Below, piece by piece: positions 37,656-56,908 of a DNA stretch of 64,000 nucleotides. Numbering within the stretch: the first letter of the stretch is position 1; each line of letters opens with the position of its first letter. Where the stretch lies: positions 244,251-308,250 of the forward strand of contig NZ_JABVED010000007.1 of the NCBI RefSeq assembly GCF_014323725.1, in the 5' to 3' direction. Origin of the DNA: Actinokineospora xionganensis (GTDB lineage: Bacteria; Actinomycetota; Actinomycetes; Mycobacteriales; Pseudonocardiaceae). The notes beneath the pieces are model-generated. The model searched no databases and was not told the DNA's origin. It saw only the letters and a program-made list of their open reading frames with translations. Both the position numbers and the translations under genes were made by a program.

Positions 37656-39059
37656 TCAGTCCAGGTCGTCGTGGCGCATCAGCTGGCGGCCCGCCTCGGT
37701 GATGGAACCCGAGAGCGACGGGTACACCGAGAAGGTCAGCGCCAGGTCGTCCACCGTCAGCTGGTTCTGAACCGCGAGCGCGATAGGCAGGATCAGCTCG
37801 CTCGCACTCGGGGCCACGATCACACCGCCGATGACCACACCGGTCGCGGGGCGACAGAAAAGCTTCACGAAACCGCGCCGCAGGCCCTCCATCTTGGCTC
37901 GGGCGTTGGTGGCCAGCGGCAGCATCACGGTGCGCGCGGGCACCTCGCCGGAGTCGATGGCCTGCTGGCTGATGCCGACGGTCGCGATCTCCGGGTGGGT
38001 GAAGACGTTGGCGGCGACGGTCTTGAGCTTGATCGGCGCGACACCCTCGCCCAGCGCGTGCCACATCGCGATGCGGCCCTGCATGGCCGCGACCGACGCC
38101 AGCATCAGCACACCGGTGCAGTCACCCGCCGCGTAGACACCGGGGACGCTGGTGCGGGAAACACGGTCGACGTTGATGAAGCCGCCGGGACCGAGGTCGA
38201 TGCCGATCTTGTCCAGGCCGATGTCGCTGGTGTTGGGCACCGAGCCGACCGTCATCAGCGCGTGCGACGCCTCGACGATCTCGCCGCCCTTGAGGTGGAC
38301 CTTGACGCCGGTGTCGTCGCGCTCGATCTTCTCCGCGCGGGCGTGCTTGACCAGGGTGGTGCCGCGCTCGGAGAACACGTCCTCCAACACGGCGGCGGCG
38401 TCGGCGTCCTCATGCGGCAGGACGCGGTCGCGGCTGGAGATGACGGTGACCTTGACGCCCATCTCGATGAACGCCGAGGCGAACTCGGCGCCGGTCACCC
38501 CGGAGCCGACGACCACCAGGTGCTCGGGCAGCTCGGGGAGGTCGTAGATCTGCCGCCAGTCGAGCACCCGCTTGCCGTCCGGCTCGGCGCCCGGGATGAC
38601 CCGCGGGTTCGCGCCGGTGGCGATGAGGACGACGTCGGCGTCGAGGACCTCCTCGGTCCCGTCGTTGCCGGTGACGGCGACCCGGTGGGCGGCCATGCCG
38701 GGGCGGTCGTTGCAGAAACGGCCGTAGCCGGTCAGCAGGCGCACACCCTCACGCTGGATGCGGTTACGGATGTCGGCGGACTGGGCGAGGGCGAGCCCGC
38801 GCACCCGGCCGCGCACGACCGGCAGGTTGACCGAGGAGTCGACGTCCTCGACGCCGATGCCCAGCTCATCGGCATCGCGGAAGGCCGAACGGGCGCCCGC
38901 GGAGGCGATGAACGTCTTCGACGGCACGCAGTCATAGAGGACGCAGGCCCCGCCCAGTCCGTCCCGCTCGACCACGGTGACATCGGCGCCGTGCTGGGCC
39001 GCGACCAGGGCCGCCTCGTAACCCGCGGGGCCGCCACCCATGATCACGATCCGGCTCAC
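37656..39059 (-). CDS. lpdA: NAD(P)H:quinone reductase of the dihydrolipoamide dehydrogenase family (LpdA)
   Basis: 467-residue FAD/NAD(P)-binding flavoprotein. N-terminal RIVIMGGGPAGYEAALVA, then GGACVLYDCVPSKTFIASAG: both cysteines of the CxxxxC disulfide are present. The second Rossmann motif is VVVGSGVTGAEFASAF, and the FAD site GVYAAGDCTG. The C-terminal HPTLSE, whose His-Glu is needed for dihydrolipoamide turnover, is replaced by VYPSLSGSITEAG. This is the pattern of the M. tuberculosis LpdA (Rv3303c), a quinone reductase next to glpD2. GTG start 39059 has GAGGAGG upstream; the ATG nearer 39086 is a longer alternative. Confidence 0.9.
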   Translation of the reverse strand: MSRIVIMGGGPAGYEAALVAAQHGADVTVVERDGLGGACVLYDCVPSKTFIASAGARSAFRDADELGIGVEDVDSSVNLPVVRGRVRGLALAQSADIRNRIQREGVRLLTGYGRFCNDRPGMAAHRVAVTGNDGTEEVLDADVVLIATGANPRVIPGAEPDGKRVLDWRQIYDLPELPEHLVVVGSGVTGAEFASAFIEMGVKVTVISSRDRVLPHEDADAAAVLEDVFSERGTTLVKHARAEKIERDDTGVKVHLKGGEIVEASHALMTVGSVPNTSDIGLDKIGIDLGPGGFINVDRVSRTSVPGVYAAGDCTGVLMLASVAAMQGRIAMWHALGEGVAPIKLKTVAANVFTHPEIATVGISQQAIDSGEVPARTVMLPLATNARAKMEGLRRGFVKLFCRPATGVVIGGVIVAPSASELILPIALAVQNQLTVDDLALTFSVYPSLSGSITEAGRQLMRHDDLD

Positions 39060-39186
39060 GTGCGTCCTCCTCATATGCGCGCTCACGTCCGCGAATACGG
39101 TACGCGCGGGACGCAGGTCACATCTGGTCGGATGGAAAAGGCCCGGCTTCCCTGCCGATGATCGGTTGTGTCGCTACTCTGTCGGA

Positions 39187-39645
39187 GTGCCGCTTTACGC
39201 CGCTTATGGGTCGAACATGGACCCGGCCCAGATGATGCAGCGAGCCCCGCACTCGCCGATGGCGGGAACCGGATGGCTGGTGGGATGGCGGCTGACCTTC
39301 GGAGGCGAAGACCTCGGTTGGGAAGGCGCCCTCGCCACCATCGTCGAGGACCCGGACTCGCAGGTGTTCGTCGTGCTCTACGACGTCACCGACGACGAAC
39401 CGCTGCTCGACCGGTGGGAAGGCTCCGAGCTGGGCCTTCACTCGAAAATCCGGCTGCGGGTGCAGACCCTTGAGGGGTCGGTGCTCGCGTGGCTCTACGT
39501 CCTCGACGCCTACGAGGGCGGTCTGCCCTCGGCCCGATACCTGGGGGTGGTCGCCGACGCGGCAGAGGCCGCGGGCGCCCCCGCCGACTACGTCGCCGAC
39601 CTGCGGGTCCGGCCATGCGACGGCATCGGGCCGGCAAACGGCTGA
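39187..39645 (+). CDS. Gamma-glutamylcyclotransferase-fold protein
   Basis: 152-residue AIG2/GGCT-like protein: LYAAYGSNMDPAQM at the N-terminus, the strand ATIVEDPDSQVFVVLYDVT and a Glu near DRWEGSEL in the position of the family's catalytic acid. Members cleave gamma-glutamyl amino acids to 5-oxoproline, but many bacterial paralogues are uncharacterised. Starts at GTG 39187; divergent from lpdA. Same position as Rv3304 in M. tuberculosis. Confidence 0.85.
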   Translation: MPLYAAYGSNMDPAQMMQRAPHSPMAGTGWLVGWRLTFGGEDLGWEGALATIVEDPDSQVFVVLYDVTDDEPLLDRWEGSELGLHSKIRLRVQTLEGSVLAWLYVLDAYEGGLPSARYLGVVADAAEAAGAPADYVADLRVRPCDGIGPANG

Positions 39646-39746
39646 CCGACCACAACCAGCGGGCCCGCCACACGTCTTCTCGGTTATGACCGAAATCACG
39701 GTCAGACGCTCGCCGAACGATTCGGCCGGTGCGAGGAGAGATGGCG

Positions 39747-40316
39747 ATGAAGGCTCGAAGATGGACCAAGCGACTGACCACCCTGGCGGTCACCCTCGGC
39801 GCGGCAGCCGCGGTCGCGGTAGTGGGCCCGTCGTCGGCAGCGGCGACTGAGGGGTACTGCGGGATCAGCTGGGGCTCCCTGGCGAAAACCGCGTCATCGA
39901 CCGAGGTCGCGCCCCTGGTTGGGGTCCGCGGCGGCAGGCACTACTGCTGGGACCGGCTCGTCGTCGACATCCGCTCCGGCGGGGCCGACGGCTACCGCGT
40001 CCAGTACGTCAGCGAAGTCACCCAGGACGGCTCCGGCCACGTCGTCCCCCTGCGTGGCGGCGCCAAACTGCAGATCATCGCGATCGCCCCGGCATACGAC
40101 GGCTCCGGCAACTCGACCTTCAACCCGGCGAACCGCAGCGAACTCGTCAACGTCGCAGGCTGGCAGACCTTCCGCCAGGTCGCGTACGCGGGCAGCTTCG
40201 AAGGCCAGACCACCATCGGTCTCGGCGTCCGGGCCCGCCTCCCCTTCCGCGCCTTCACCCTCAACAACCCCGACGGCGGCTCCCGCATAGTCATCGACGT
40301 AGCCCACTTCTGGTAA
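39747..40316 (+). CDS. Secreted AMIN-like domain protein
   Basis: 189-residue exported protein. ATG 39747 has GAGGAGA upstream; the signal peptide runs from MKARRWTKRLTTLAVTLGAA to about SAAATEG. The mature domain has two Cys (GYCGISW; HYCWDRL), a DIRSGGADGYRVQYV strand pair and VPLRGGAKLQIIAIAPA, a beta-sandwich pattern of AMIN-like domains in actinobacterial lipoproteins and secreted proteins. No lipobox, so freely secreted. Probably binds cell-wall polymer; substrate unknown. Its TAA stop begins the 21-bp tandem repeat. Confidence 0.8.
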   Translation: MKARRWTKRLTTLAVTLGAAAAVAVVGPSSAAATEGYCGISWGSLAKTASSTEVAPLVGVRGGRHYCWDRLVVDIRSGGADGYRVQYVSEVTQDGSGHVVPLRGGAKLQIIAIAPAYDGSGNSTFNPANRSELVNVAGWQTFRQVAYAGSFEGQTTIGLGVRARLPFRAFTLNNPDGGSRIVIDVAHFW

Positions 40317-40377
40317 CCCGCGAGTCCAACGTCCAAAACAACGAGTCCAACGTTCAGAACAGTGAGTCCAACGTTCG
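40314..40377 (+). repeat. 21-bp tandem repeat, three units, starting at a stop codon
   Basis: Begins with the TAA of the AMIN-like gene, then CCGCGAGTCC. GAGTCCAACG starts at 40322, 40343 and 40364, an exact 21-base period. Full unit: GAGTCCAACGTTCAGAACAA plus C. It fills the whole gap to the convergent DUF559 gene. Other copies at 41365-41413 and 55839-55930. Confidence 0.9.
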
Positions 40378-40379
40378 GC

Positions 40380-41282
40380 TCAGGCGCATTTGAATCTCCG
40401 GGCGGTGAAGGCCGCCCGGAGATCGCCCATGAGGCGTTCCGGCGAGCGCAAGTCCGCCACATTCGCACGAACGATCAACCAACCACGTGAACGCAGATCA
40501 GTATCTCGCTCGGCATCTCGCTCAACACGAGCCTCATGAGCGACGTAGCCGTCGTATTCCAGTGCGATCATGGGTTCCTCCCAGGCGAAATCGAGCCGGT
40601 AGCGTTCACGGCCGTGGATGTCCGTGACCGGCACTTGAGCTCTCGGGACCGGCAACCCGTCGTCGAAGAGGGCCAGCAACAACGCACTTTCAGCTGGAGA
40701 CTCAGGTTTACCGGTGGCGAGATCCATCAGTGCCTGCGCCCGCCGCCGTCCGCGTGGGTCTCGACGGGTGTCGATTCGGTGCCGGATCGCCGCGTGCAAT
40801 TCGCCTCGATCGGCGGGCTGCACCAACGCCAGTGCCTGGTCAGCACAGGCGAGCACGGTCGGCCGATGACCTCCACAGAGGACCTCGGCGATGGCGAAGT
40901 CCAGACCGACCACCCGCAGCCCGGCCAACTCGGTCGTGTCGAGGCCGTCCAGGATTCCGCTGTGGACAGCTAGTCCCGCTCGGCCGCGTATGGGGCGGTG
41001 GTAGCTAGTCAGTATGTGCACGACGCCGATATCTGCTGCGGTGCAGCCATAAAGCCAGGCAGCCGTTGGGCCGGTGAGTGCCGACCCCGGTCCCACATGA
41101 AGCAGTCCCGCAGCGGCGCGCGTGGGCATCTCAAGCATCCGTTTGCGCTCAAGAACGACCTTGCGCGAATAGGCGATCAATCGACCATTGGCCAGCGCTG
41201 AACGGACCGCGTTGTGGCCGATCGCGGCGACGAGTTCCTGACGGTCGTGGGCCCCGTGCAGGCCAGGCGGAAGTTCGAGCAC
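40380..41282 (-). CDS. DUF559-domain protein with AbiEi-like N-terminal part
   Basis: 300 residues. The N-terminal ~170 residues (LYGCTAADIGVVHILT; RVVGLDFAIAEVL) resemble AbiEi-type antitoxin/winged proteins common in actinobacteria. The C-terminal ~100 residues form a DUF559 (Vsr-like PD-(D/E)XK) domain: YRLDFAWEEPMIALEYDG, then HEARVERDAERDTDLRSRGW. The metal-binding D and E-x-D are recognisable, so nuclease activity is possible. Role may be DNA repair or defence; unknown. ATG 41282 is the start. Its upstream region carries another copy of the 21-bp repeat. Confidence 0.78.
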   Translation of the reverse strand: MLELPPGLHGAHDRQELVAAIGHNAVRSALANGRLIAYSRKVVLERKRMLEMPTRAAAGLLHVGPGSALTGPTAAWLYGCTAADIGVVHILTSYHRPIRGRAGLAVHSGILDGLDTTELAGLRVVGLDFAIAEVLCGGHRPTVLACADQALALVQPADRGELHAAIRHRIDTRRDPRGRRRAQALMDLATGKPESPAESALLLALFDDGLPVPRAQVPVTDIHGRERYRLDFAWEEPMIALEYDGYVAHEARVERDAERDTDLRSRGWLIVRANVADLRSPERLMGDLRAAFTARRFKCA

Positions 41283-41364
41283 GCCACCACAGTGCCGTTT
41301 TCCGGGCCTGCTGTCGCGGGCATCCCAGGCGCCTGTGGATAACTCAGGGCGGAACTACCAGTTC

Positions 41365-41413
41365 ATCGTTCTGAACGTTGGACTCGTTGTTCTGAACGTT
41401 GGACTCGCGGTTA
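41365..41413 (-). repeat. 21-bp tandem repeat, two full units plus a decayed third, minus orientation
   Basis: Read on the minus strand from the TAA stop of the amidohydrolase: TAACCGCGAGTCCAACGTTC, AGAACAAC, GAGTCCAACGTTCAGAAC; the units start 21 bases apart (the GACTC blocks are at 41381 and 41402). Same direction relative to its gene as the copy at 40314. Confidence 0.9.
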
Positions 41414-42604
41414 GGACAAAGCGGTTAGGGCGGTGTGGGTCATGGTGCGGATGCCGGTGATGAGGGCGCGTTCGTCCAATTGGAACGTTGGCTGGTGCAA
41501 GTCGTGGATGGGGCCTTCGCCGGACCAGACGCCGAGGCGCATGAAGGAGCCGGGGACCTTTTCCAGGTACCAGCCGAAGTCTTCGCCGCCGCTGGACTGC
41601 TTGGTGCCTGCCAGGGCGTCCTGGCCCAGGGCCGACTCGATGCCCGCGCGGAGGATCTGGGTGCTCTCGCGGTCGTTGATGACCGGGGGGACGCCCCGGG
41701 TGTGGATCAGCTCGAAGCCGACGCCCGTGGGGGCCAGGAGGGACTCGACCAGGCTGGCCACGATGGGCTCCAAGTCCGCCCAGACGTCGTGGTCGCCGGT
41801 GCGCAGGGTGCCACGCAGGACGCCGTCCTGGGGGACCGCGTTGGCCGCCTCGCCCGCGTGGACCGCGCCCCAGACCAGGACGGTGCCGGAGCGGGGGTCG
41901 ATGCGGCGGGACAGCAGCGCCGGGAGGCCGGTGATGACCGTGCCGAGGGCGTGGACCAGGTCTGCCGTCAGGTGCGGGCGCGAGGTGTGGCCGCCCGGCG
42001 AGGTGAGGCGCAGCTCCAGCAGGTCGGTCGCCGAGGTGATGGCGCCGACGCGGGTGCCGATGCGGCCGACCTCCAGGCGCGGGTCGCAGTGCAGGCCGAA
42101 GATGCGGTCGACCCCGTCCAGCCCGCCTGCCTCGATGACCTCCAGGGCGCCGCCGGGCATGACCTCCTCGGCGGGCTGGAAGATCAGCCGGACCCGGCCG
42201 GGCAGCTCCGGCGCGGACGCCAGGGCGATGCCGGTGGCCAGCAGGATCGTGGTGTGGGCGTCGTGGCCGCACGCGTGGCAGACGCCCTGGACCTTGGCCG
42301 CGTACGGCAGGCCGGTCGCCTCGGTCATCGGGAGGGCGTCCATGTCGGCGCGCAGGGCGACGCAGCGGTCGCCCTCCCCGACGTCGCAGATCAGGCCGTT
42401 GCCCGCGGGGAGCAGCTCCGGCTGCAGGCCGAACGACTTGAGCAGGCCCGCGACCATCTCGGTGGTCGCGAACTCCTGCCGGGACAGCTCCGGGTGCTCG
42501 TGGAAATGCCGGAACCACGCCAAGACGTCGGACGCGTTGGCGTCCAACCACTGGTCGAGCCAGGCAGGTCCACGCCCGGCCGCGAGATCCTCCACAGTGG
42601 GCAT
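41411..42604 (-). CDS. Peptidase M20D-type amidohydrolase
   Basis: 397-residue Zn/Mn-dependent amidohydrolase (AmiA/AmiB, HipO-like) cleaving N-acyl amino acids. Metal ligands appear in CHACGHDAHTT, the Glu pair in FQPAEEVMPGGA, HCDP and the C-terminal SSGGEDFGWYL; dimerisation domain is the insert with PGGHTSRPH. ATG 42604 gives MPTVEDLAAGRGPAWLDQWL; the frame stays open upstream to 42838 but that part is unlike the family. About 300 bp (42605-42902) before it hold no recognisable gene, only possible promoter sequence. Ortholog of the M. tuberculosis ami genes next to deoD. Confidence 0.9.
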   Translation of the reverse strand: MPTVEDLAAGRGPAWLDQWLDANASDVLAWFRHFHEHPELSRQEFATTEMVAGLLKSFGLQPELLPAGNGLICDVGEGDRCVALRADMDALPMTEATGLPYAAKVQGVCHACGHDAHTTILLATGIALASAPELPGRVRLIFQPAEEVMPGGALEVIEAGGLDGVDRIFGLHCDPRLEVGRIGTRVGAITSATDLLELRLTSPGGHTSRPHLTADLVHALGTVITGLPALLSRRIDPRSGTVLVWGAVHAGEAANAVPQDGVLRGTLRTGDHDVWADLEPIVASLVESLLAPTGVGFELIHTRGVPPVINDRESTQILRAGIESALGQDALAGTKQSSGGEDFGWYLEKVPGSFMRLGVWSGEGPIHDLHQPTFQLDERALITGIRTMTHTALTALS

Positions 42605-42902
42605 ACTGACCCCACTGGACGTGATCAGCACGGCTGAATCCTCTCCGGAGACGGCGAGGTGTCCGTTTCGACCACCCTCCGACGGGAGTTCGGGTCGCGA
42701 GTCCAGCAGAGTCACGCGACCCCTCCGGCTGTGGTTTCGGTTTCCATCTCCTGTCCCATAGTGCATCATCCCCCGCTCCGATCCGTTACGGCGACCACAT
42801 CGCAAGACCGCCGGTAGTGACCTTGCGACGAACGGCACGCGGTGTTCGGCCGGGCAGTTCGATGATCAAGACGAAGGACCGTCTACCGGCGCTGAGCTGC
42901 GG

Positions 42903-43163
42903 TCATCCCTTCTTGCGCCGCTTCGCCCTCACCCGGTTGCCGTAGATGACGATTCCCAAGAGGACAGCCGCGGTCAGCCCGATCACGAGCTTGTTCTTCG
43001 AACGTGCCGCATCTTCCTCGGTGGGCGCGGGCTCCAGGGTCGGGCCGGTCGGCGCGACGGTCTCCGTGGGCTGCGCCAGGGGGTCGGCACCGGCCATCGG
43101 GGCCGCGCCGAGCACGACGAGCGCGCTGAGCAGAAGTCCGAGCAGCAGCCTGGTCACAGGCAT
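42903..43163 (-). CDS. Small exported single-span protein
   Basis: 86 residues from ATG 43163 (AGGGCTC upstream). Signal peptide VTRLLLGLLLSALVVLGAA cleaved after AGA, a short Thr/Pro-rich outer segment, then a membrane helix (LVIGLTAAVLLGIVIYG) and a basic tail RVRAKRRKKG inside: a type I membrane protein. No family recognised. Thirty-six bases beyond the meaB stop on the other side of its start; separate transcript likely. Confidence 0.75.
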   Translation of the reverse strand: MPVTRLLLGLLLSALVVLGAAPMAGADPLAQPTETVAPTGPTLEPAPTEEDAARSKNKLVIGLTAAVLLGIVIYGNRVRAKRRKKG

Positions 43164-43199
43164 CCGAGCCCTCCAAAGGGTGGTGAGGTCGTGACCAGA

Positions 43200-44190
43200 T
43201 TAGTCGGACCGCTCACGCTCCGAGAAGGCCGCGAGGATGCGTTCGGCGGCCAGGGTGGCCGTCAGTTCGCCGTCGCGGACCTGTCGTTCCAGGTCCGGGG
43301 CCAGCGCGCGCACGGCAGGGTGGTCGTGAAGTCGGCCGAGAAGGATGTCCTGGACCATCGACCAGGTCCAGTCGACCTGCTGGCGGCGCCGCTTGTCGGC
43401 CAGCTCGCCGGACTCCGACAGGGTGCGGTGGTGCAGCTCGATCTGCTGCCAGAGCGTGTCGAGGCCCAGGTTCTCCTGGCCGCTGCAGGTCAGCACGGGC
43501 GGAGTCCAGGCCCCTTCGGGCGCACGCAGCAGCCGCAGGGCGCCAGCGAGCTCCCGGGCGGCCTTCTGGGCCTCTCGCGCGTGGTCGCCGTCGGCCTTGT
43601 TGACCGCGATCACGTCTGCCAGCTCCAGGACGCCCTTCTTGATGCCCTGCAGCTGGTCACCCGTTCGCGCCAGGGTCAGGAACAGGAAGCAGTCGACCAT
43701 GTTGGCCACGGTGACCTCGGACTGCCCGACGCCGACGGTCTCGACCAGCACGGTGTCGTAGCCCGCGGCCTCCATCAGCACGATGGTCTCGCGAGTCGCC
43801 TTGGCGACGCCGCCGAGCGTGCCCGACGTCGGCGACGGCCGGATGAACGCCGCCGGGTCGACCGCGAGCCGCGCCATCCGGGTCTTGTCGCCCAGGATGC
43901 TGCCGCCCGTGCGGGTCGACGACGGGTCGACGGCGAGCACCGCGACCCGGTGCCCCGCGGCGGTCAGGTTCGAGCCGAGGGCGTCGATGAACGTCGACTT
44001 GCCCACCCCCGGCACGCCGGTGATGCCGACCCGGTGCGCCCCTCCCGCATGCGGCAGCAGCTCGACCAGCAGCTCCTGAGCCAGCGCGCGGTGGTCGGCG
44101 CGCTTGGACTCCACCAGCGTGATGGCCCGCGAGAGCAGCCCTCGGTCGCAGGCGAGCACACCCTTGGCGTACTCGCCGACATCGATCTTC

Positions 44191-44198
<8 letters not shown>
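43200..44198 (-). CDS. meaB: Methylmalonyl-CoA mutase-associated GTPase (MeaB)
   Basis: 332-residue G3E P-loop GTPase protecting and reactivating B12-dependent methylmalonyl-CoA mutase. Walker [10 protein letters not shown] (~residues 60-68), [27 protein letters not shown] (Walker B/switch region) and NKADGD. The first 8 bases of the gene overlap the end of mutB, giving translational coupling. Third gene of mutA-mutB-meaB. Confidence 0.95.
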
Positions 44199-46367
<2,169 letters not shown>

Positions 46368-46371
<4 letters not shown>

Positions 46372-48218
46372 GCCTTGACTCCCAACGTCTCCATGGTAGC
46401 TCGCAGAACGGCGAGCGCGTCGCAGCCCGCGAACACGAACTCGTCCACAGTGGACAATTCGGCGTTCGGTTTGCCCGCCAGCAGGATCCGCTGGGCCCCC
46501 GCCGACTTCAGGGTCTCGATGACCGCCGCCGCGTCGGCGGCGTAGGCCTTGTCGGTGCCCGCGAGACAGGCGATGGTCGCGCCGCTCGCAGCGAACTCCT
46601 CGACCGGTCCGGCGACGGTCTCGATGCCGCCTGCCTGGAACAGGTTGGCGGCAAAGGTTGCCCGCGCGGTGTGCGCGGCCACCGGCCCAAGCGTGGCGAG
46701 GAAGATCTTCGGTCGCGCGCCCGTCTCGGCGAGTGTCCGATCGGAACGGTCGCGCAGTTCCTCATAGGCCTCGGCGTAGTGGATGACCGGCAGGCCGCCG
46801 GTCGGTGCGGCGGGCTCCGGCTCGCGCACGATCGGCTTCTCCGCGAGGTTCGGGAACTCGTTGACCCCGGTGATCGCGTCGGTCCGGTTCGCGATGTTGG
46901 CCGAGCGGGCCGCCCAGGTGGCGGCGAGCCGGTCGGAGATGACGCCGGTGTCGAGGGCGGCGATGATCCCGCCCGCGCGCTCGATCTCGGTGAAGAAGTC
47001 CCACGCGGTGCGGGCCAGGTCGTCGGTGAGCCGTTCCACGAACCAGGAACCGCCCGCCGGGTCGATCACACCGGCCAGTTTGGACTCGTCGAGCAGCACC
47101 GACTGGGTGTTGCGGGCGATGCGCCGGGCGAACCCGTCGGGCAGGCCGAGCGCGGCGTCGAACGGGAGGACGGTGACCGAGTCGGCGCCGCCGACACCCG
47201 CGCCGAAGCAGGCCAGCGTGGTGCGCAGCATGTTCACCCACGGGTCGCGCCTGGTCATCATGGCCGGCGAGCTGACGGCGTGCTGGCGCTGCGGCGCCGT
47301 GAACCCGGCGACCTCGGCGACGCGCGCCCAGAGTCGGCGGGCGGCGCGGAACTTGGCGATGGTGAGGAACTGGTCGGCCGTGGCGGCGTAGCGGAACTCC
47401 AGCTGCGCGGCGGCGGCCTCGACGCCGAGCCCGGCGTCGGTCAGCGCGCGCAGGTAGGCGACACCGGCGGCGATGGACGCGCCCAGTTCCTCGGCATCGG
47501 ACCCGCCCGCGTGGTGGACGGGAAGGCCGTCGACGACGATCGAGCGCAGCGCCGGGTACTCGGTGGCGACCCTGACCGCGAGCGTGGCGGCCCCGTCGAG
47601 GTCGGCGCCCGCGGCGGTGCGGGCGTGGTGGCCGATCGGGTCGGCGCCCAGGTTGCCCTTGACCTCACCGGCGGGTATGCCCTTGTCGGCGTGCACCCGC
47701 AGCAGTTCGTCGGCGGCGGCGCGGAAGTCGGCGCCCGCGTCGAGGGTGACCGGCGCGAGGTCGAGGTAGACGTCCTCAAGCACGTCGGCCAGCGCCGAGA
47801 CCGGCAACCCGCTGCCACCCACAGCCAGCCAGAGCGAGGTGACACCGTTCTCCAGGTCCGCCATCACCGCCTTGCGGGCGGACGCGGGGTCGGGATCGGT
47901 GTGGCGCTGACGCACATCCCACCCGGTCGCGACGTTGCCCTGGGGCTTGCCGCCGCGGACATAAGGCGGCAGTCCGGGAAAGCCCGCGGGCGGCGGCGCG
48001 TCCTCGGCGGTGTAGAGCGGCTCCAGGACGATGCCGTCATAGGTGGTGGTCGCGAGCAGCGACTCGACCGCGCCGTCGAACTCTTCGGGCAGGGCACCTG
48101 ACTTGCGGAGCACGCCCGCGACAAGGTCCTGCCACTGCTCGCGGGCGGCGTCGGCGAACTCGCCCGCCAGAACCAAGTCGTGCGGCGCCGTGCTCGCCCT
48201 CGCAGTGGGGGATGTCAT
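46368..48218 (-). CDS. mutA: Methylmalonyl-CoA mutase small subunit
   Basis: 616-residue beta subunit. Same layout as MutB, but the C-terminal domain lacks D-x-H-x-x-G (the equivalent is [13 protein letters not shown]), so it does not bind cobalamin; it stabilises the heterodimer. Conserved surfaces: [37 protein letters not shown] 48218; divergent from the Ser/Thr kinase across 135 bp. No cobalamin riboswitch was seen in that short leader. Confidence 0.96.
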
Positions 48219-48353
48219 GCCCAGAAATGCTACGGAAACCGAGCGTCAACACCAGGCGAGGACGTTGTGAGGCTAATCGCGATTCACAAACCGTCCGGGG
48301 TCTTGTCTGCTTTCGCCACCGCCGAGCCCGAGGTTTCGGGGAACAATGGGCCA

Positions 48354-50027
48354 GTGTCCACTGTGTCTGACTCGCAACCACCTCAGCGCCTGGTCGCAGG
48401 CCGTTACCGGCTGCGCGCGCTGCTTGGACAGGGGTCCATGGGGACGGTCTGGGAGGCCTACGACGAGCACCTGCACCGCCCGGTCGCGGTGAAGGAGGTC
48501 CGGCTCGACCAGGGAATCCCCGAGGGCGAGGCCGATGAGCTGCGGGAACGCACGATGCGCGAGGCCAGGGCCATCGCCGTGGTGTCGCACCCGAACGTCA
48601 TCACCCTGCACGATGTCGTCCGGGTCGACGGCGAGCCGTTCGTGATCATGGAATACATGCCCGCGGCCAGCCTGGCGCAGATTTTGCGGGCCAACGGGCC
48701 GCTCACCGACACCCAGGCGGCCGTTGTCGGAGACGCGATCGCCGCGGGCCTACAGGCCGCGCACGAGGCGGGAATCACACATCGAGACGTCAAGCCGGGC
48801 AACGTGCTGGTGGGTCTGGACGGCCGGGTCAAGCTCACCGATTTCGGAATCGCGCGCAATGTCTCGGAGAAAACACTCACCCGGACCGGCATCATGCTCG
48901 GCTCCCCGGCCTATATCGCCCCCGAGATCGCCTCGGGCGCGGCGGTCAGCCCCCGCGCCGACCTGTGGGGGCTCGGCGCCACGCTCTACGCCGCGGTCGA
49001 GGGTCGGGCGCCGTACGACCCCGAGGGCGAGGCGCTCGCCATCGTCTCGGAGGTCGTGCACGGCGAGATCCCCACACCGACGATCGACGGCCCGCTGCGG
49101 TCGGTCATCGAGGAGCTGATGGTCAAGGACCCGGCCGAGCGGATCTCCCTGAGCGAGGTCCGCGCCCGACTGCACCCGCTGCAGCCGGTCCCGGGGACGC
49201 CGGTGTTCGCCGGTCTGACCACGACACTGCCCGCGCCCGTGACAGCGGAGGCCGCGCCGAGCGACCCGACGGTCACGATCGCCGCCGACGCGGTGTCGTC
49301 CCCCAGCATGCCGCTGGCGGCCGCGCCCGGCCCGCTGCCCTTCACCGAGCCCCCACCCAGGCGGTCGCACTGGGGCGTCGCCGCGGCCGGGGTCGCCGCT
49401 GCCGTGCTGTTCGCCGCCGCCGCGGCCGGCGGTTTCGCGCTGACCCGGGTGGTCGGCGGCGAGCCGATCGGGCCGCGGCCCCAGACCCAGACGTCGCAGG
49501 CGTCGGCGCCGGTTCGCGATGTCGAGGTGCGCACGGCGGACGCCGCCACCCTCGCGGGCGAGCAGGGCGGCAGCTTCTCCATCCCCGTGCCCGCCGACTG
49601 GGTCAAGTTCGTCGAGCAGCGCGCGGAGAAGAAGCTGACCAACAGCACCCGCGTGCACTGGGTGGCCCCGGACGGCACGTCGGAACTGGTGGTGGAGCGG
49701 TTCCCGAACTTCTACCCCGACCACCGAATCGACAAGTACCTCGCGGTCCTGGCCGCCCGCGCGCCCGGATACCGGCTGGTGGGGACATCCGAGCCTGCGG
49801 CGGGCGAGCCCGAAATGCCGCTGCAGCTGACCTACCGGACGGTGGAGATGGCCGACGACGCGATCGGGCAGGTGCCCGCCGACCTCAACCGGGCGACGTT
49901 CGCGAACCTGCTGCCCGCGGGATCGGACCTGTGGGTGGTCAGCCTGACGGTGCCGATCGAGCAGGAGGACAGCGGCAAGCGCGGCCTGTTCACCCGCACG
50001 GTCGCGGAGTTCCGCCCGACTGGGTAG
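48354..50027 (+). CDS. Membrane Ser/Thr protein kinase (PknB-like) with an extracytoplasmic sensor domain
   Basis: 557 residues from GTG 48354. Kinase domain ~16-275: GQGSMG loop, Lys47 in VAVKEV, HRDVKPGN (catalytic Asp145), DFG at 163-165, SPAYIAPE. A Pro/Ala juxtamembrane linker (~290-380) is followed by one membrane helix (WGVAAAGVAAAVLFAAAAAG) and an outer domain of ~150 residues with GGSFSIPVPADWVKF and ELVVERFPNF. The outer part has no PASTA repeats and looks like a compact alpha/beta domain found in actinobacterial kinases. Alternative starts upstream (48267) are possible. Signal and substrates unknown. Confidence 0.92.
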   Translation: MSTVSDSQPPQRLVAGRYRLRALLGQGSMGTVWEAYDEHLHRPVAVKEVRLDQGIPEGEADELRERTMREARAIAVVSHPNVITLHDVVRVDGEPFVIMEYMPAASLAQILRANGPLTDTQAAVVGDAIAAGLQAAHEAGITHRDVKPGNVLVGLDGRVKLTDFGIARNVSEKTLTRTGIMLGSPAYIAPEIASGAAVSPRADLWGLGATLYAAVEGRAPYDPEGEALAIVSEVVHGEIPTPTIDGPLRSVIEELMVKDPAERISLSEVRARLHPLQPVPGTPVFAGLTTTLPAPVTAEAAPSDPTVTIAADAVSSPSMPLAAAPGPLPFTEPPPRRSHWGVAAAGVAAAVLFAAAAAGGFALTRVVGGEPIGPRPQTQTSQASAPVRDVEVRTADAATLAGEQGGSFSIPVPADWVKFVEQRAEKKLTNSTRVHWVAPDGTSELVVERFPNFYPDHRIDKYLAVLAARAPGYRLVGTSEPAAGEPEMPLQLTYRTVEMADDAIGQVPADLNRATFANLLPAGSDLWVVSLTVPIEQEDSGKRGLFTRTVAEFRPTG

Positions 50028-50033
50028 CGGGGT

Positions 50034-50663
50034 TCACTCGACGGGATCGTCCGGCCCGTAGCGGCGGTGGGATTCCGCGGTCTGCGCGAGTTTCCGCAAC
50101 GCCGCCAGTGCCGAATCACCCAGGACAGTGCCGACCACGACACCCTCCAGGACGCGGTCGATGCCTGTGAAGTTCGCGACGTAGTCAAGATCGGTCCGCG
50201 CGATCACCTCGCACGCCTCGGCGTAACGGCGCATCCCGGCGATGAGCTGAGGGTGGTCGATCTCGCGGGCCGCTGTGTAGACCATGGCGAGCGAGCGGGC
50301 GGCCGGGTGATCCCGAGTGCAGGTCCAGCCCATGTCCTCGATGAGAGCGACGACCTCGTCCAGCGCGGCCTCGTCGACCTCCTCCGGCGCCTGGGTCAGC
50401 CCCTTCGAGACCGTGCCCATCAGCTTGTCGAGGTCGTCGGTCGGGGAGTCGACGGTGGCGAGGATGTCGTGGACGGCCGCCACCGAGAGCCCGCCGAGTT
50501 CGATCATCGCCCGTACGAGTCGCAGCCTGCGGACGTGGCTGTCATCGTATCTGGCCTGGTTGGGGCTGGTGCGTTCGCCCGGCGGGAGGATGCCCTCACG
50601 CAGGTAGAACTTGATCGTCGGCACGGCGACACCGCTGCGCCTGCTCAGTTCCGCGATCCGCAC
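50034..50663 (-). CDS. MerR family transcriptional regulator
   Basis: 209 residues. The winged helix-turn-helix MRIAELSRRSGVAVPTIKFYLREGILPPGERTSP (given in pieces: RIAELSRRSGVAVPTIKFYL) matches MerR; the long coiled-coil helix and a C-terminal helical effector domain follow (residues ~80-209). No metal-binding Cys, so a drug/organic-ligand type. GTG 50663 start, divergent from the membrane protein at 50757 across an AT-rich region with nested dyads, the probable operator. Its C-terminus ends 6 bases past the kinase gene stop (convergent). Confidence 0.88.
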   Translation of the reverse strand: MRIAELSRRSGVAVPTIKFYLREGILPPGERTSPNQARYDDSHVRRLRLVRAMIELGGLSVAAVHDILATVDSPTDDLDKLMGTVSKGLTQAPEEVDEAALDEVVALIEDMGWTCTRDHPAARSLAMVYTAAREIDHPQLIAGMRRYAEACEVIARTDLDYVANFTGIDRVLEGVVVGTVLGDSALAALRKLAQTAESHRRYGPDDPVE

Positions 50664-50717
50664 CGCGCCTCCTTCGGAATTTTCCTTGCCAACGAGCCGG
50701 ATAGATAGTGTACTTAT

Positions 50718-50735
50718 CGATAGTAGAGAGTATCG
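50718..50735. promoter_or_regulatory. Dyad-rich AT region, candidate MerR operator
   Basis: CGATA, eight bases, TATCG at 50718-50735, within the AT-rich run 50700-50745 that also has GATAG/CTATC and TATCGATA palindromes. It stands out from 70% GC surroundings and lies between divergent MerR and membrane-protein starts. Confidence 0.4.
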
Positions 50736-50756
50736 CTATCCATTCAGGGGGATCTT

Positions 50757-51680
50757 GTGCGCACCAGACTCAGTCAAGCCATCGACTGGCACCGGCCGTT
50801 GATGATCTTCTCGCTGGCCATGGTCGTCATGACAGTGGCGTCCGTGCTCGGTCTCATCGTGGACGACCGGATGATCGCCGGCGCGCCCAACTGGCTCAAG
50901 CCGTTCAAGTTCGCCGTGTCGTTCATCGCCTACAGCGTCATGTGGGCCTGGCTGATGTCGCTGCACCCGCGCAGGCCACGCTGGCTGCACCACACCGGAA
51001 CGCTGCTGGCCGTCGCCGGGGTGGTCGAGATGGCCGCGATCGCGGGCCAAGCCCTGCGCGGCAAGCCCAGTCACTTCAACGTCCAGACCGAGTTCGACGC
51101 CACGCTGTGGATCACCATGGGCATCACCGTCGCGATCCTCTGGGTCGCGACGCTGGCCGCGTCGATCTCCGTGGCACGCGACGTCCTGCTTCCCCGGCCG
51201 CTCAAGCTCTCGATCAACCTGGGCATGGCGATCTCGCTGGCCGGGATGCTCACCGGCCCGCTGATGTCGCAACGCGAGACGGGGATCAAGGGGGTGGCCG
51301 GAGCGCACTCGATCGGGGTGCCCGACGGCGGGCCGGGCATGCCGATCACCGGCTGGAACCTCGTCGGCGGCGACCTGCGTGTCGGCCACTTCATCGGCAT
51401 CCACGGGCTGCAGGTGCTTCCGCTGGTCGCGGTCGTGCTGGCCGCGTTCGTCGCCCGGCACGCGATCCTGGCGCGCGAGGAGGTGCGGACCCGGCTCGTG
51501 TGGACCGCGGGCGGTGTCTACACCGGACTGTTCGCGCTCGTCACCTGGCAGGCGTTCCGCGGGCAGTCCCTGGTCGAGCCGGACGCGCTCACGCTGCTCG
51601 CGTTCGCCGGAATCGTCGCGGCGGGCACCGCCGGGGTCACCTGGGCGAAGTCCGCCGCGCGGACACCGGTGCCCGCGTGA
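50757..51680 (+). CDS. Seven-helix membrane protein of unknown function
   Basis: 307 residues from GTG 50757 with AGGGGGA upstream. Hydropathy suggests seven helices: LMIFSLAMVVMTVASVLGLI, KFAVSFIAYSVMWAWLMSL, GTLLAVAGVVEMAAIAGQAL and four more, with conserved-looking WLKPFKF, and VGHFIGIHGLQVLP (His pair) in a later helix. The His residues could bind haem or a metal, but no family was recognised. Stop overlaps the start of the ABA4-like gene (GTGA). Likely controlled by the divergent MerR. Confidence 0.75.
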   Translation: MRTRLSQAIDWHRPLMIFSLAMVVMTVASVLGLIVDDRMIAGAPNWLKPFKFAVSFIAYSVMWAWLMSLHPRRPRWLHHTGTLLAVAGVVEMAAIAGQALRGKPSHFNVQTEFDATLWITMGITVAILWVATLAASISVARDVLLPRPLKLSINLGMAISLAGMLTGPLMSQRETGIKGVAGAHSIGVPDGGPGMPITGWNLVGGDLRVGHFIGIHGLQVLPLVAVVLAAFVARHAILAREEVRTRLVWTAGGVYTGLFALVTWQAFRGQSLVEPDALTLLAFAGIVAAGTAGVTWAKSAARTPVPA

Positions 51681-52093
51681 ACGCCCTGCTGTTCGACCTC
51701 GCCTTCTGGGTCACCGTCCCGTTCTGGGCGCTGATGGTGTTCGCGCCCGCGTGGTCGTGGACCCACCGGATCGTCTCGTCGCCGTGGATCGTGCTGCCGC
51801 CGGTGGCGGTCTGGGCGGTCCTGGCCGTGCCGCGGTTCCCCGAGCTGTGGTCGGCGGTGAGCACGCCGTCGGTGGAGAAGTTCACCGCGTTCGCCGCCGA
51901 CGGCGGGGCGGCGGCGCTGATCTGGGCGCAGATCATCGCGTGGGACCTGTTCATCGGCCGGTGGATGTACCTCGAGGCGCGCAGGCTCGGAATCCACCCG
52001 CTGATCATGGGCCCCCTGCTCGTGTTCACCATCCTGCTCTCACCGATCGGGCTGCCGGCGTTCCTCGTGCTCCGGGCGCGCACGCGCGCGTAG
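51677..52093 (+). CDS. ABA4-like/DUF4281 membrane protein
   Basis: 138 residues, four hydrophobic helices ([66 protein letters not shown]). The pattern [15 protein letters not shown] and LLxSPIGL matches the DUF4281/ABA4-like family; the plant member acts in neoxanthin formation, bacterial roles are unknown. GTG start overlaps the previous gene's TGA, so they form one unit with the seven-helix protein. Confidence 0.8.
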
Positions 52094-52103
52094 GCTTCCC
52101 GGA

Positions 52104-52916
52104 GTGACCGCTATCGACATCGACACAGACCCGAAGGCCTTCGCGGAGCAGGCGGCAAAAGCGCTTGCCGAACGGACCGGGGTCGAACAACACGACCTGG
52201 CATTCGTCCTCGGCTCCGGCTGGCGGCCCGCCGCCGACGAACTCGGCGAGCCGATCGCCGAGGTGCCGATGGCGGAGCTGCCCGGCTTCCTCGCGCCGAC
52301 CGTCCAGGGACACGGCGGCACGATCCGGTCGGTCGACGTCGACGGCAAGAAGGTGCTGCTCGTGCTCGGCCGCACCCACCTCTACGAGGGCCACCCAGTC
52401 GCGCGTGTGGTCCACGGGATTCGCACGGCGGCGGCCGCCGGTGTGCGCGCCGTGGTGCTGACCAACGCGGCGGGCTGCCTGATGGAGGGCGTGCAGGTCG
52501 GCCAGCCGGTGCTGATCAGCGACCACCTGAACCTGACCGCGCGCTCCCCGCTGGTCGGCGCGGACTTCGTCGACCTGACCGACCTGTACTCGGCACGACT
52601 GCGGGCGGTCGCCAGGAGCATCGACCCGACGCTGGTCGAAGGCGTCTACGCGGGCCTGCCCGGGCCGCACTTCGAGACCCCGGCGGAGATCCACATGCTC
52701 CGGGTCATGGGTGCGGGCCTGGTCGGCATGTCCACGGTCCTCGAAGCCATCGCGGCCCGCGCGGCCGGTGTCGAGGTGCTGGGGCTGTCGCTGGTGACGA
52801 ACCTGGCCGCGGGCATCACCGGCGAGCCGCTCGACCACCTGGAAGTGCTGGAGGCCGGTCGGATCGCGGCGAGTTCGATGGGCACGCTGCTGCGCGAGTT
52901 GGCTCTGCGCTCGTGA
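52104..52916 (+). CDS. punA: Purine nucleoside phosphorylase
   Basis: 270-residue trimeric-type PNP cleaving inosine/guanosine to base and ribose-1-phosphate. Signatures: VLGSGW, phosphate-site [39 protein letters not shown] with the catalytic Asn. GTG 52104; the stop overlaps pmmB start (GTGA). Same gene order as Rv3307 (deoD)-Rv3308 (pmmB); the two may form a ribose-phosphate salvage operon. Confidence 0.95.
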
Positions 52917-54574
52917 CCCGGCTGACCTCGGAGCTGCGCGACCGCGCGTTCCGCTGGATGGCCGACGACCCCGACCCGGACACCAGGCTGGAGCTGCAGA
53001 AGCTCGTCGCGGCGGCCATGGGCGGCGACCCGGCGGCGGTCGACGAGGTGGCAGATCGGATGGCGGGCACGTTGGAGTTCGGCACCGCCGGGCTGCGCGG
53101 GCCGGTTCGCGCGGGCTCGAACGGGATGAACCGCGCGGTGGTCATCCGCACGACGGCCGGTCTTGCGGAGTGGCTCAAGGCGCAGGGCCGGGGTTCGGGG
53201 ATCGTGATCGTCGGCCGGGACGCGCGGCGCGGGTCGGAGGCGTTCTACGCCGACGCCGCCGGGGTGCTCGCCGCGGCAGGCTTCGACGTGCGGGTGCTCC
53301 CCCGCCCGCTGCCGACACCGGTGCTGGCGTTCGCCGTGCGCGAGTTCGGCGCGGTGGCGGGAATCCAGATCACGGCGTCGCACAACCCGCCCGCGGACAA
53401 CGGGTACAAGCTCTACCTCGACTCGGGCGCGCAGATCGTGCCGCCCGCGGACCGCGAGATCGAGGCCGCCGTCACGGTGGCCCCGCCAGCGGTGTCCGTG
53501 CCGCGCTCGGACACCTGGACGACCCTGGGCGACGACGTCCTGCAAGCGTATCTGGACCGCGTGTCGTCGCTTCCCCATGGCACCGCCCGCGAACTGCGCG
53601 TGGTGGCGACCGCCCTGCACGGTGTCGGCGCGGGCACTCTCGCGCCGGCGTTGAACCAGGCCGGGTTCGTCGACGTGCGGATGGTGTCGGAACAGGCCCA
53701 GCCGGATCCGGACTTCCCGACCGTCCCGTTCCCCAACCCGGAGGAACCGGGTGCCACGGATCTGTTGCTCGCCAAGGCAACCGAGGTCGACGCGGACGTC
53801 GCGATCGCCTTGGACCCGGACGCCGACCGCTGCGCCGTGGGCGTTCGCGGCGCTGACGGTGTCTGGCGGATGCTGCTGGGCGACGAGACCGGCGCGCTGC
53901 TCGGCGTGCACCTTTTGTCCACTTTGGACCGAGTGGCGCATCCCGACGCGTTGGTGGCCAACACGATCGTCTCGTCCTCGCTGCTCAAGTCGATCGCCTC
54001 GGCGGAGAACGTCCGGTATGACGCCACCCTCACCGGGTTCAAATGGCTGATGCGGGCGGGCGACGGGAACGGCACCGGACTTGTCTACGCCTACGAGGAG
54101 GCACTGGGTCACTGCGTCGACCCGGACTCGGTGCGCGACAAGGACGGCATCTCGGCGGCCGTGCTGGTGTGCGACCTCGCCGCGACCCTGAAGGCTGCCG
54201 GCCGGACGCTGCTGGACGCGTTGGACGACCTCGCCGTCACCCACGGCCTGCACCTGACCCGGCAGGTTTCGTTGCGGGTGACGGACCTGGCGCGAATCGC
54301 CCGACTCATGTCGGACCTTCGGGTCGATCCGCCCGCCGAGCTGGCGGGCGTCCCGGTGGCTTGCGAGGACCTGCTGCCCGCGGCGGATGTGCTGCGGTTC
54401 AGCGGCGAAGGCGTTCGGGTGATCGTGCGTCCATCTGGGACCGAGCCGAAAATCAAGGCATATCTGGAGATCGTGGAACCGGTGGCGGACCGGTCTTCGC
54501 TCGCCGACGTTCGCACTCGGGCAACCGGCTCGCTGGACGCACTGGCCGACGAGGTGGCCGGGCTGCTGCGTTAG
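52913..54574 (+). CDS. pmmB: Phosphomannomutase/phosphoglucomutase-type alpha-D-phosphohexomutase (PmmB/PGM2-like)
   Basis: 553-residue mutase. Four domains are recognisable: the phosphoserine loop [15 protein letters not shown] (Ser is the phospho-carrier), metal loop [10 protein letters not shown], sugar loop YEEALGHC, and C-terminal phosphate loop [11 protein letters not shown]-terminal [18 protein letters not shown] is typical of PGM2/phosphopentomutase-like members. Coupled to punA by GTGA overlap, which suggests it may convert ribose-1-phosphate to ribose-5-phosphate; hexose-phosphate activity is the alternative. Confidence 0.93.
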
Positions 54575-54628
54575 CGCGATGACCGTTATCCGCCAGCGGT
54601 GGCGCGGCCGAGCCAGCAGGCTGGTGTC

Positions 54629-55372
54629 ATGAACACACCACTTGAGGGCAAGGCCGCGCTGGTCACCGGCGGCAGCAGGGGAATCGGCGCGGCGACGGCG
54701 ATCCGTCTCGCCCAGGACGGCGCCGACGTCGCTTTCACCTTCCACAGCAACGAGACCGCGGCCGCGGCCGTTGTCGAGCAGATCAAGGCGACGGGCGGAC
54801 GAGCGCTCGCGATCCAGGCGGACAGCGCTGACGCGGGAGCGGTCATGGCCGCCGTCGAACAGACCGCCGCGGAGTTCGGCCGATTCGACATCCTGGTCAA
54901 CAACGCCGCGACCTATGTCGTGGAACCGTTGGAGGAACTCGATTTCGCCGCGTTCGACCGAAGCGTGGCGGTCAACATCCGGGCGCCGTTCGCCGCGGCC
55001 AAGGCGGCCGTCCCGCTGATGGCCGACGGCGGGCGGATCATCTCGATCGGCACCCTGGTCAACGACCGGGTCGCGTTTCCGAACTACACGCACTACGCCA
55101 CCACGAAGACCGCGCTGATCGGCCTCACCAAGGGACTGGCGCGCGAACTCGGGCCGCGAGGGATCACGGTGAACCTGGTCAACCCGGGTCCGACCGACAC
55201 GGAGTTGAACCCGGCGGACGGGCCGTATGCCGACACGATCCGCGGGTTCACCGCGCTCGGGCGGTTCGCCGAGCCGTCGGAGGTGGCGGGCGCGGTGGCG
55301 TTCCTGGCCGGGCCGGACGGCCGGTACGTGACGGGCGCGACGCTCACCATCGACGGCGGGTTCACCAGCTGA
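54629..55372 (+). CDS. SDR family oxidoreductase
   Basis: 247-residue classical short-chain dehydrogenase. NAD(P) motif TGGSRGIG near residue 15, NNAAT, active-site Ser in ISIGTLV and YATTK (Y-x-x-x-K), then NPGPTDTEL. The Arg after the glycine motif suits NADP preference. Substrate unknown. ATG 54629 chosen; the 10-residue longer reading has no ribosome-binding site. Nineteen bases before the flavodoxin-like gene on the same strand. Confidence 0.92.
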   Translation: MNTPLEGKAALVTGGSRGIGAATAIRLAQDGADVAFTFHSNETAAAAVVEQIKATGGRALAIQADSADAGAVMAAVEQTAAEFGRFDILVNNAATYVVEPLEELDFAAFDRSVAVNIRAPFAAAKAAVPLMADGGRIISIGTLVNDRVAFPNYTHYATTKTALIGLTKGLARELGPRGITVNLVNPGPTDTELNPADGPYADTIRGFTALGRFAEPSEVAGAVAFLAGPDGRYVTGATLTIDGGFTS

Positions 55373-55391
55373 TCTGGCAGACTCGGTGGCC

Positions 55392-55841
55392 GTGCCCAGA
55401 CTGCTGATCGTCCACCACACACCGTCGCCCGCACTGCAGGCGATGTTCGAGGCCGTGGTGTCCGGGGCGAGTGACCCTGAGCTGGCCGAGGTCGAGGTCG
55501 TCCGCGAGCCCGCCCTCTCCGCGACGGCCGCCGACGTCCTGGCCGCCGACGCCATCGTGCTCGGCACCCCGGCCAACATCGGGTACATGTCGGGCGCGTT
55601 GAAGCACTTCTTCGACACCGTCTACTACCCGTGCCTGGACGCGGGCAAGGGCACGCCCTTCGGCTTCTACGTCCACGGCAACCAGGGCACCGAGGGCGCC
55701 GTCACCAGCGTCCGCACCATCGCCAAGGGCATGGGCTGGACGCCGGTGGCGGAACCCGTGGTCGTCCTCGGCCAACCCGAGAAGCCCGACCTGGAACGCT
55801 GCTGGGAACTCGGCGCGACGGTCGCGGCCGGACTGCTCTAA
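55392..55841 (+). CDS. Flavodoxin/NADPH-dependent FMN reductase-like protein
   Basis: 149 residues. FMN-binding-type fold: first strand RLLIVHHTPSP with the phosphate-loop S/T-rich segment, AIVLGTPANIGYMSGALKHFFDTVY and GFYVHGNQGTEGAV, typical of flavodoxin-like and NAD(P)H:quinone reductase families. Its stop TAA opens the long palindromic 21-bp repeat. GTG 55392 (GTG 55386 alternative). Confidence 0.85.
   Translation: MPRLLIVHHTPSPALQAMFEAVVSGASDPELAEVEVVREPALSATAADVLAADAIVLGTPANIGYMSGALKHFFDTVYYPCLDAGKGTPFGFYVHGNQGTEGAVTSVRTIAKGMGWTPVAEPVVVLGQPEKPDLERCWELGATVAAGLL

Positions 55842-55927: not shown

Positions 55928-55930
<3 letters not shown>
55839..55930. repeat. Palindromic 21-bp repeat cluster spanning two convergent stop codons
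   Basis: Two direct units (GAGTCC at 55846 and 55867) are followed by two inverted units, giving arms of ~41 bases that both begin TAACCGCGAGTCC. The left TAA is the flavodoxin-like stop, the right one (minus strand) the aldo/keto reductase stop. Outer and inner thirds pair perfectly; the middle has mismatches. Works naturally as a bidirectional terminator. Confidence 0.9.

Positions 55931-56904
<974 letters not shown>

Positions 56905-56908
<4 letters not shown>

Follow-up and report, generated by a model that had tools for sequence, protein, structure and literature searches.

A 21-bp gene-end repeat of Actinokineospora xionganensis forms palindromes, one of which encloses an AbiEi-like/Vsr-type nuclease gene

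Palindromes resembling repetitive extragenic palindromic (REP) sequences are common in bacteria, and the REP-associated tyrosine transposases (RAYTs) are, to our knowledge, the one kind of dedicated partner enzyme known for them. Other interspersed repeats touch stop codons or terminate transcription, such as the MIRU units at stop/start overlaps of mycobacterial genes and the terminators formed by DNA-uptake sequences; we know of no dedicated, bracketed nuclease gene for either. Here we analyse a 64,000-nt stretch of Actinokineospora xionganensis (contig NZ_JABVED010000007.1, positions 244,251 to 308,250; hereafter the window), in which a 21-bp tandem repeat follows the stop codons of four genes and forms two palindromes, one of them with a nuclease gene between its arms. 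We consider it somewhat probable that this repeat is the non-coding half of a two-part system, which would resemble REPIN-RAYT pairs in its working and use an unrelated enzyme.

According to the literature, inverted REP doublets (REPINs) form hairpins and REPs occur in the DNA flanking RAYT genes (PMC3116915), RAYTs are single-copy and vertically inherited (PMC8049555), and REPs sit between unidirectional and convergent genes (PMC3733652); the last account also records the CGTC repeats, a family without a dedicated transposase. As far as these accounts go, the present system is similar in its dispersed extragenic inverted doublets, which can form hairpins, in its gene-end placement, in having a dedicated gene flanked by its own repeat, and in the pairing of repeat group with enzyme. 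It differs in having an AbiEi-like/Vsr-type nuclease rather than a tyrosine transposase, tandem 20-22-bp units starting with GAGTY or GTGTY rather than GTAG-tagged REPs, and a gene that lies between the two arms of one palindrome. Because the enzyme is not a RAYT, the element is no member of the REPIN-RAYT family; if logic were weighed over homology, the pair may be classed beside it. The REP clusters of PMC1525189 are, like our elements, palindromes that often lie between convergent genes; there, however, insertion sequences target the repeats, whereas here one nuclease lineage is bracketed in many genera. MTES_1575 (PMC3710099) is a Vsr-type restriction endonuclease within a very long multidomain protein; ours falls in the same Pfam nuclease family (the window protein below the cutoff) and is a short two-part protein. 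Among the open-access papers listed by our searches, none links DUF559 or Vsr-type nucleases to interspersed palindromes in its title or abstract. Since neither the enzyme nor the array layout is known from a repeat-enzyme pair in that literature, we regard the system as categorically new.

A nuclease gene between the arms of a palindrome

A preliminary description of this DNA reported a repeat of 21-bp period that opens with the TAA stop codon of four genes, and its coordinates and exact period are all borne out. The stops at 40314-40316, 41411-41413 (minus), 55839-55841 and 55928-55930 (minus) are each followed by C(C)GCGAGTCC and 21-bp units. Chance is excluded, as claimed: the window contains eight matches to GAGTCCAACGTTCAGAAC at three mismatches or fewer, where shuffled sequence would give 0.03, and the genome contains 120 to GAGTCCAACGTTCAGAACAA at two or fewer (58 forward, 62 reverse), where a reversed control gives none. 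The four places are real, but they are the four arms of two palindromes, which rules out four independent insertions beside unrelated genes, and what was taken for a short element always in the sense direction is in fact two-armed. At 55839-55930, a single 92-nt palindrome links two convergent stop codons, with both TAA triplets within the stem (-72.8 kcal/mol, z -11.4, reached by 0 of 200 shuffles). At 40314-41413, one palindrome is split by a nuclease gene on the minus strand (40380-41282); its left arm has three units and lies 3' of an AMIN-like gene, and its right arm has two units and lies 3' of an M20 gene on the opposite strand. Folded singly, these arms are weak (z -0.7 and -2.7), and the third unit of the left array (40364) overlaps the stop codon of the nuclease gene (40380-40382). 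The link to this gene was missed by the preliminary description and is the main point of the present analysis.

The nuclease has two recognisable parts. Residues at about 56-164 match PADLOC AbiEi models, and the C-terminal part (about 221-289) matches PF04480 DUF559 with 24.4 bits (cutoff 20.6) and PF18741 REase_MTES_1575 with 27.7 bits, under that model's cutoff of 38.2. Among 31 homologues, DUF559, MTES_1575 and the PADLOC AbiEi models were found in all 31 and the Pfam model AbiEi_1 in one, and D231, E242, D244, H249, D256 and R259 are invariant (alignment A2). Pfam identified no transposase family in these 31 proteins, Y1 HUH tyrosine transposases included (no genome search was aimed at Y1 or other transposases). 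The A2 profile found no solved-structure relatives at E <= 0.1, and a scan found no relatives of the nuclease in viral contigs. A single-sequence AlphaFold model had a mean pLDDT of 34 and was not used. AbiE is a type IV toxin-antitoxin system; it has the AbiEi-like part in common with our protein, in which a nuclease domain follows, and no AbiEii-like partner adjoins the gene in the window, where its neighbours are the AMIN-like and M20 genes.

Across the family, the nuclease is mostly present as one strong copy per genome, between inverted arms of 20-22-bp units starting with GAGTY or GTGTY. We surveyed 200 genomes from 46 genera (Pseudonocardiaceae, by inference). A two-protein profile matched in 154 of them at E <= 1e-6, and strong matches (E <= 5e-70) occurred in 76 genomes from 27 of the 46 genera; six of the 76 have two such matches, and the strong match in G034 has an internal stop. 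Flanks were compared at strong loci (30 among the matches listed, plus a sister species, G001) and at 20 mid and 20 weak loci of our own choosing, with enough flank at 31, 19 and 18, respectively. Tandem GWGTY units 20-22 bp apart stand in both flanks at 20 of 31 strong, 13 of 19 mid and 0 of 18 weak loci, and in a single flank at six, two and none. An inverted match between the flanks that holds the unit start was found at 27, 13 and one. A looser test, requiring an inverted match above 60 shuffles, gives 28/31, 15/19 and 6/18; it also counts non-unit matches (e.g. at L235), and the stricter figures are therefore preferred. Cross-locus flank scores were set aside because they are inflated by homologous neighbour genes. 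At four weak DUF559 loci from other genera (L251, L253, L255, L257), matching inverted or hairpin repeats without a 21-bp period occupy both flanks, which may reflect one shared principle across a broader family; hairpins of the L253 type beside the weak DUF559 match in G019 were not dispersed in a 200-kb sample.

Each lineage has units of its own (GTGTCCCAC.., GTGTCCAACGTTC.., GAGTCGTACGTTC.., GAGTCGTAAGTTC.., GTGTTGGCC.. and more). The 15-mers derived at 39 loci include 37 distinct ones, with one shared by L196 and L220 and another by L229 and L230. Of these units, 38 start with GAGTY or GTGTY and one with GAGTG, a G-A/T-GT start being required by our script; the GTAG tag of REPs is not a feature of these units. 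Two paralogues in G045, identical at 241 of 298 residues, have GTGTCCCAC-type and GTGTCCCCTCC-type arrays, each on both sides, and one of these units is also found at two further places in a 200-kb sample. Similarly, the two copies in G094 (149 of 299 residues identical) have different units. In G046 the unit at the nuclease locus is identical to units elsewhere in the genome, and in G097 the agreement is close. The inference that the family is Pseudonocardiaceae comes from arrays of the same kind in Actinophytocola and Saccharothrix records, and from one G158 array that equals an Actinophytocola record.

Arrays and nuclease also occur together at the level of whole genomes. We counted the pattern GAGTYSNNNNYYCN{8,9}GAGTYS in the 200 genomes, of which 158 had fewer than 20 hits and the rest up to 469. 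A strong nuclease was found in 38 of the 42 genomes with at least 20 hits versus 38 of the 158 others (Fisher p 2e-15, kinship ignored), and in all 30 genomes with at least 50 hits; for one of these 30, G101, the control count is also high, at 57 to its 103 hits. A broader pattern scan of contigs listed at least 99 loci, 19 of which were looked at; hits outside actinomycetes were taken for chance, judged by titles and single matches only.

Within the genus, the nuclease is present in 2 of 16 genomes at E <= 1e-3, namely the genome containing the window (G000) and that of the sister species, with one match in each; GAGTCCAACGTTCNNNAC matched in the same two only. In G010, one of the 14 genomes without the gene, the junction of the AMIN and M20 genes is about 60 bp long with an ordinary hairpin. 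In G009, the same junction (L175) also has no nuclease gene; it carries two TTGTCCACA boxes and a long inverted sequence, and may be what remains of a nuclease locus since lost. By eye, the M20 neighbour recurs at many nuclease loci.

Upstream of the nuclease start lie TTATCCACA or TTGTCCACA sites, which we take to be the DnaA-box consensus. Within 200 bp, such a site in the gene sense is present at 39 of 51 strong and mid loci (22/31 and 17/20, respectively) and at one of 20 weak loci. Its usual distance is about -60, with another site often lying near -79, and boxes of opposite orientation are absent from this interval at all 71 loci. As background, 781,770 bp of the own, sister and three other genus genomes contain 10 boxes on both strands, two nuclease loci included. 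These sites suggest that expression of the nuclease may be tied to replication, when hairpins would extrude. They also adjoin the 5' array, and the tandem two-turn spacing of the units fits protein binding. Together with an AbiEi-like part in 31 of 31 homologues, this would suit arrays that bind an AbiEi-like regulator-nuclease, with the flanking ones autoregulating it and the dispersed ones serving as self-marks, decoys or targets in defence or replication control, all without mobilisation. We regard such a regulator as unlikely: the dispersed copies described below lie downstream of genes and not at divergent promoters, they are long palindromes rather than simple operators, their presence or absence in the sister species shows turnover, and the window offers no adjoining AbiEii-like partner.

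Palindromes at gene ends in two sister species

The unit is dispersed too in several genomes, and in G000 the palindromes lie just downstream of genes, chiefly convergent ones. Context was counted in 40 stretches around part of the GAGTCCAACGTTCAGAACAA places, plus the window, which gave 42 clusters with the split window element counted twice; further arrays in the genome (e.g. L153-L156, four places) fall outside this count, and only their pattern hits were counted. Genes for this comparison and for its background were called with a small caller of our own, which missed the nuclease gene itself. The clusters lie between convergent genes in 27 cases and tandem genes in 14, none lies between divergent genes, and one is at a contig start; all gene pairs in the fetched stretches, G001 and element-bearing pairs included, number 57 convergent, 208 tandem and 53 divergent. 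The absence of clusters between divergent genes supports the gene-end location. The preliminary description named copies found mainly inside genes as evidence to the contrary; no cluster lies within a called gene, though overlaps with a gene end, of 23 bp at most, occur in a few. The absence of clusters within called genes also rules out a coding role for the 21-bp frame. Units are in both orientations in 36 of the 42 clusters and in a single one at L009, L020, L025, L029 and the two halves of the split window element. The nuclease gene is the sole gene found between two arms in the clusters of this genome (one-arm clusters were not followed further).

TAA beside the element is a real bias and not a rule. 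Stops within 60 bp of an element (n = 63) are TAA in 32 cases, TGA in 28 and TAG in three, against 22, 162 and 54 at other gene ends (n = 238; Fisher p 3e-12 for the TAA excess). The proposal that the element supplies its own stop codon therefore fails in its strict form on the 28 TGA and three TAG stops, and the gene ends at L033, L035 and L042 are unchanged in the sister species, which has no element there. The exact strings TAACCGCGAGTCC and TAACCCGCGAGTCC have just six genome copies each, so the element often includes TAA without requiring it. As a guess, the TAA excess might stem from copies of the nuclease locus, whose two arms start with TAACC.

The two arms of a palindrome vary together. 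Across 34 elements (outer 42 bases of each arm), arm identity is 90.8% within elements vs 83.3% between them. With arms containing N left out, departures from the consensus common to both arms number 71 (149 are in a single arm); when partners are permuted 2000 times, the count averages 21.4 and never exceeds 39. We conclude that the palindrome is kept, either because the hairpin is under selection or because one arm is copied onto the other; the data fit both. The longest stem noted, at L048, is perfect over 54 bp, takes in the stop codons and folds at -120.6 kcal/mol; arms can also be unequal, as at L031 (two units vs eight). At L040:3020-3200, a palindrome is apparently nested within an older GCGAGTCC...GGACTCGC palindrome. 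At L014, L017 and L025, the palindromes are interrupted by single-n joins, with sequence duplicated there; by eye the extra units after the n look like assembly-join duplicates, and they are kept in the counts. Contigs C7 (end) and C17 (start) of this genome break inside palindromes, and hairpins seem to disturb assembly.

A stable hairpin just 3' of a stop codon is one feature of an intrinsic terminator, and the 54-bp perfect stem makes the termination signal suggested in the preliminary description plausible; no U-tract terminator was called at the elements, all three terminator-like calls in 39000-57000 lying elsewhere. The palindromes might then be bidirectional terminators and nothing more, with the nuclease a passenger between two arms by chance or for insulation. 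Gene-end placement, stems as stable as -120.6 kcal/mol and, by eye, an ordinary hairpin at the same place in the sister species at L033 and L045 all fit this account. We find it quite unlikely nonetheless, given the missing U-tract calls, since it leaves unaccounted for the units on both sides of the nuclease at 33 of 50 strong and mid vs 0 of 18 weak loci, the paralogue-specific units and the co-occurrence in 200 genomes.

Another possibility is a free-standing homing endonuclease inserted in the loop of its own target palindrome and spreading by cutting intact ones. The gene does split a palindrome, the unit differs with the enzyme, and Vsr-type folds are found among homing enzymes. A homing endonuclease gene interrupts its target and leaves no intact targets in the genome; in G000, dozens of intact palindromes with the same unit coexist with the enzyme, which would presumably have cut them, and the gene is present once, with no spread into palindromes. 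Homing is, in our view, very doubtful.

The genomes of G000 and its sister species G001 are collinear, with a DNA identity of about 90-93% across the window query. In G001, the nuclease locus has the same gene order and neighbour genes of 94-95% DNA identity, vs 59% protein identity for the nuclease, and both arms are built from a different unit, GAGTCGCCCCTCC.. (the GAGTCGCCC unit). We compared 21 collinear sites, classed by eye with additional comparisons for L024 and window 40314. The unit type is kept at five (L025, L029, L038, L041 and window 55839), and eight have a like layout but the different unit GAGTCGCCCCTCC.. (L024, L026, L032, part of L039, L044, L046, L048 and window 40314). One site is mixed (L020), one has unrelated sequence (L034), and six have no repeat (L033, L035, L036, L042, L045, L047), with the ordinary hairpin in its place at L033 and L045. 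L012 and L013 are inverted in G001 and allow no clean comparison. Gain or loss at 6 of 21 sites supports the preliminary description, which supposed insertion at gene ends; a stop codon brought by the element is not supported. In G001, one palindrome arm at L160:7300-8830 has grown to more than 1 kb of degenerate units of the 21-bp type.

Inverted repeats, dispersed copies with similar loops and this precise presence or absence would also be expected if the palindromes were non-autonomous derivatives of some ordinary DNA transposon or true RAYT system and the nuclease only its cargo. That origin is highly improbable: the nuclease is the only gene between two arms in the clusters of G000, and no target duplication was seen by eye at the six empty sites, whose flanks have diverged; no search was aimed at Y1 or other transposases.

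A proposed working of the pair

We favour a two-part system in which the enzyme acts on its own repeat. The N-terminal part of the nuclease would bind the unit, whose length of 21-22 bp, about two helical turns, would set the motifs on one face of the DNA. The nuclease part may cut the hairpin or cruciform once it is extruded, and repair of the resulting break could copy or homogenise palindromes into other gene-end hairpins, where they would persist as strong two-way transcription terminators. More tentatively, and with slightly less confidence than an even chance, we put forward a new class of interspersed repeat, in which an AbiEi-like/Vsr-type fusion recognises its own palindromes and disperses or homogenises them into terminator positions, with expression tied to DnaA and dialects co-evolving with the enzyme. 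Such a class would be the counterpart of REPIN-RAYT without a transposase, in the Pseudonocardiaceae and perhaps the wider Actinomycetes. If true, pairs of repeat and enzyme have more than one origin, some of the large DUF559 family gains a function, and the spread and uniformity of gene-end palindromes by a dedicated enzyme become testable, for which the matched dialects (two in G045, two between G000 and its sister species) are ready-made specificity controls.

Several observations weigh against this proposal. Three array-rich genomes (G019, G078, G171) have no strong nuclease, and in a fourth, G024, the match is in two overlapping pieces (G024:C10:214283-215133). Conversely, 38 genomes have a strong nuclease and fewer than 20 pattern hits; some of them use GTGT-type units, which are invisible to the pattern, and the remainder are unexplained. 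Among strong loci, units stand on just one side at L190, L191 and L201, the inverted match at L197 does not contain the unit motif, and the inverted arms at L203, L205, L206, L212 and L217 are short and hold no tandem units; the mid loci L223, L227, L235 and L236 have no units. Bracketing was sought around nuclease genes only and for other genes is known just in G000; because the survey began at nuclease genes, its counts do not give the frequency with which other genes are bracketed. Unit distance follows protein distance weakly (Mantel r 0.20, reached by 48 of 2000 permutations) over 39 of 51 loci, 12 having been dropped for fewer than three units or a broken or short reading frame. By eye, no target-site duplication was seen at the six empty sites, where the flanks have diverged. 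Finally, an unselected 400-kb piece of G001 has eight hits of the general pattern (reversed control 0), four of them in the GAGTCGCCC unit of the nuclease locus, all in one palindrome, and four in other units; with half of the hits in other units, G001 lacks uniformity. We chose this stricter general pattern because a loose count of the G001 unit with one mismatch showed no excess in a 400-kb sample (11 vs 19 in the reversed control).

Features of the window

Table 1. Positions of the two palindromes, the nuclease gene and adjoining features in the window
Feature	Position	Strand	Basis
AMIN-like domain gene; TAA stop opens left arm	39729..40316	+	PF24837 E 2e-45; stop 40314-40316
Left half-array: outer flank and three 21-bp GAGTCCAACGTTC-type units at 40322, 40343 and 40364	40314..40384	+	sequence
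Nuclease gene, 300 aa, AbiEi-like and DUF559/Vsr-type	40380..41282	-	PF04480, PF18741, PADLOC
DnaA-box-like TTATCCACA, 5' of nuclease start, gene-sense	41334..41342	-	sequence
Right half-array: two 21-bp units and outer flank, up to TAA stop of M20 gene	41365..41413	-	sequence
M20-family amidohydrolase gene, start uncertain, convergent neighbour	41411..42838	-	PF01546 E 1.9e-40
FMN-reductase/flavodoxin-like gene; end is left edge of second palindrome	55386..55841	+	PF03358 E 1e-9
Intact palindromic element joining two convergent stop codons	55839..55930	.	fold
Aldo/keto reductase gene; end is right edge of second palindrome	55928..56908	-	PF00248 E 6e-81

Elsewhere in the window, at positions 14537-14716, there is another tandem array of 21 bp, separate from these and degenerate, in which a period of 66 bp is strong.

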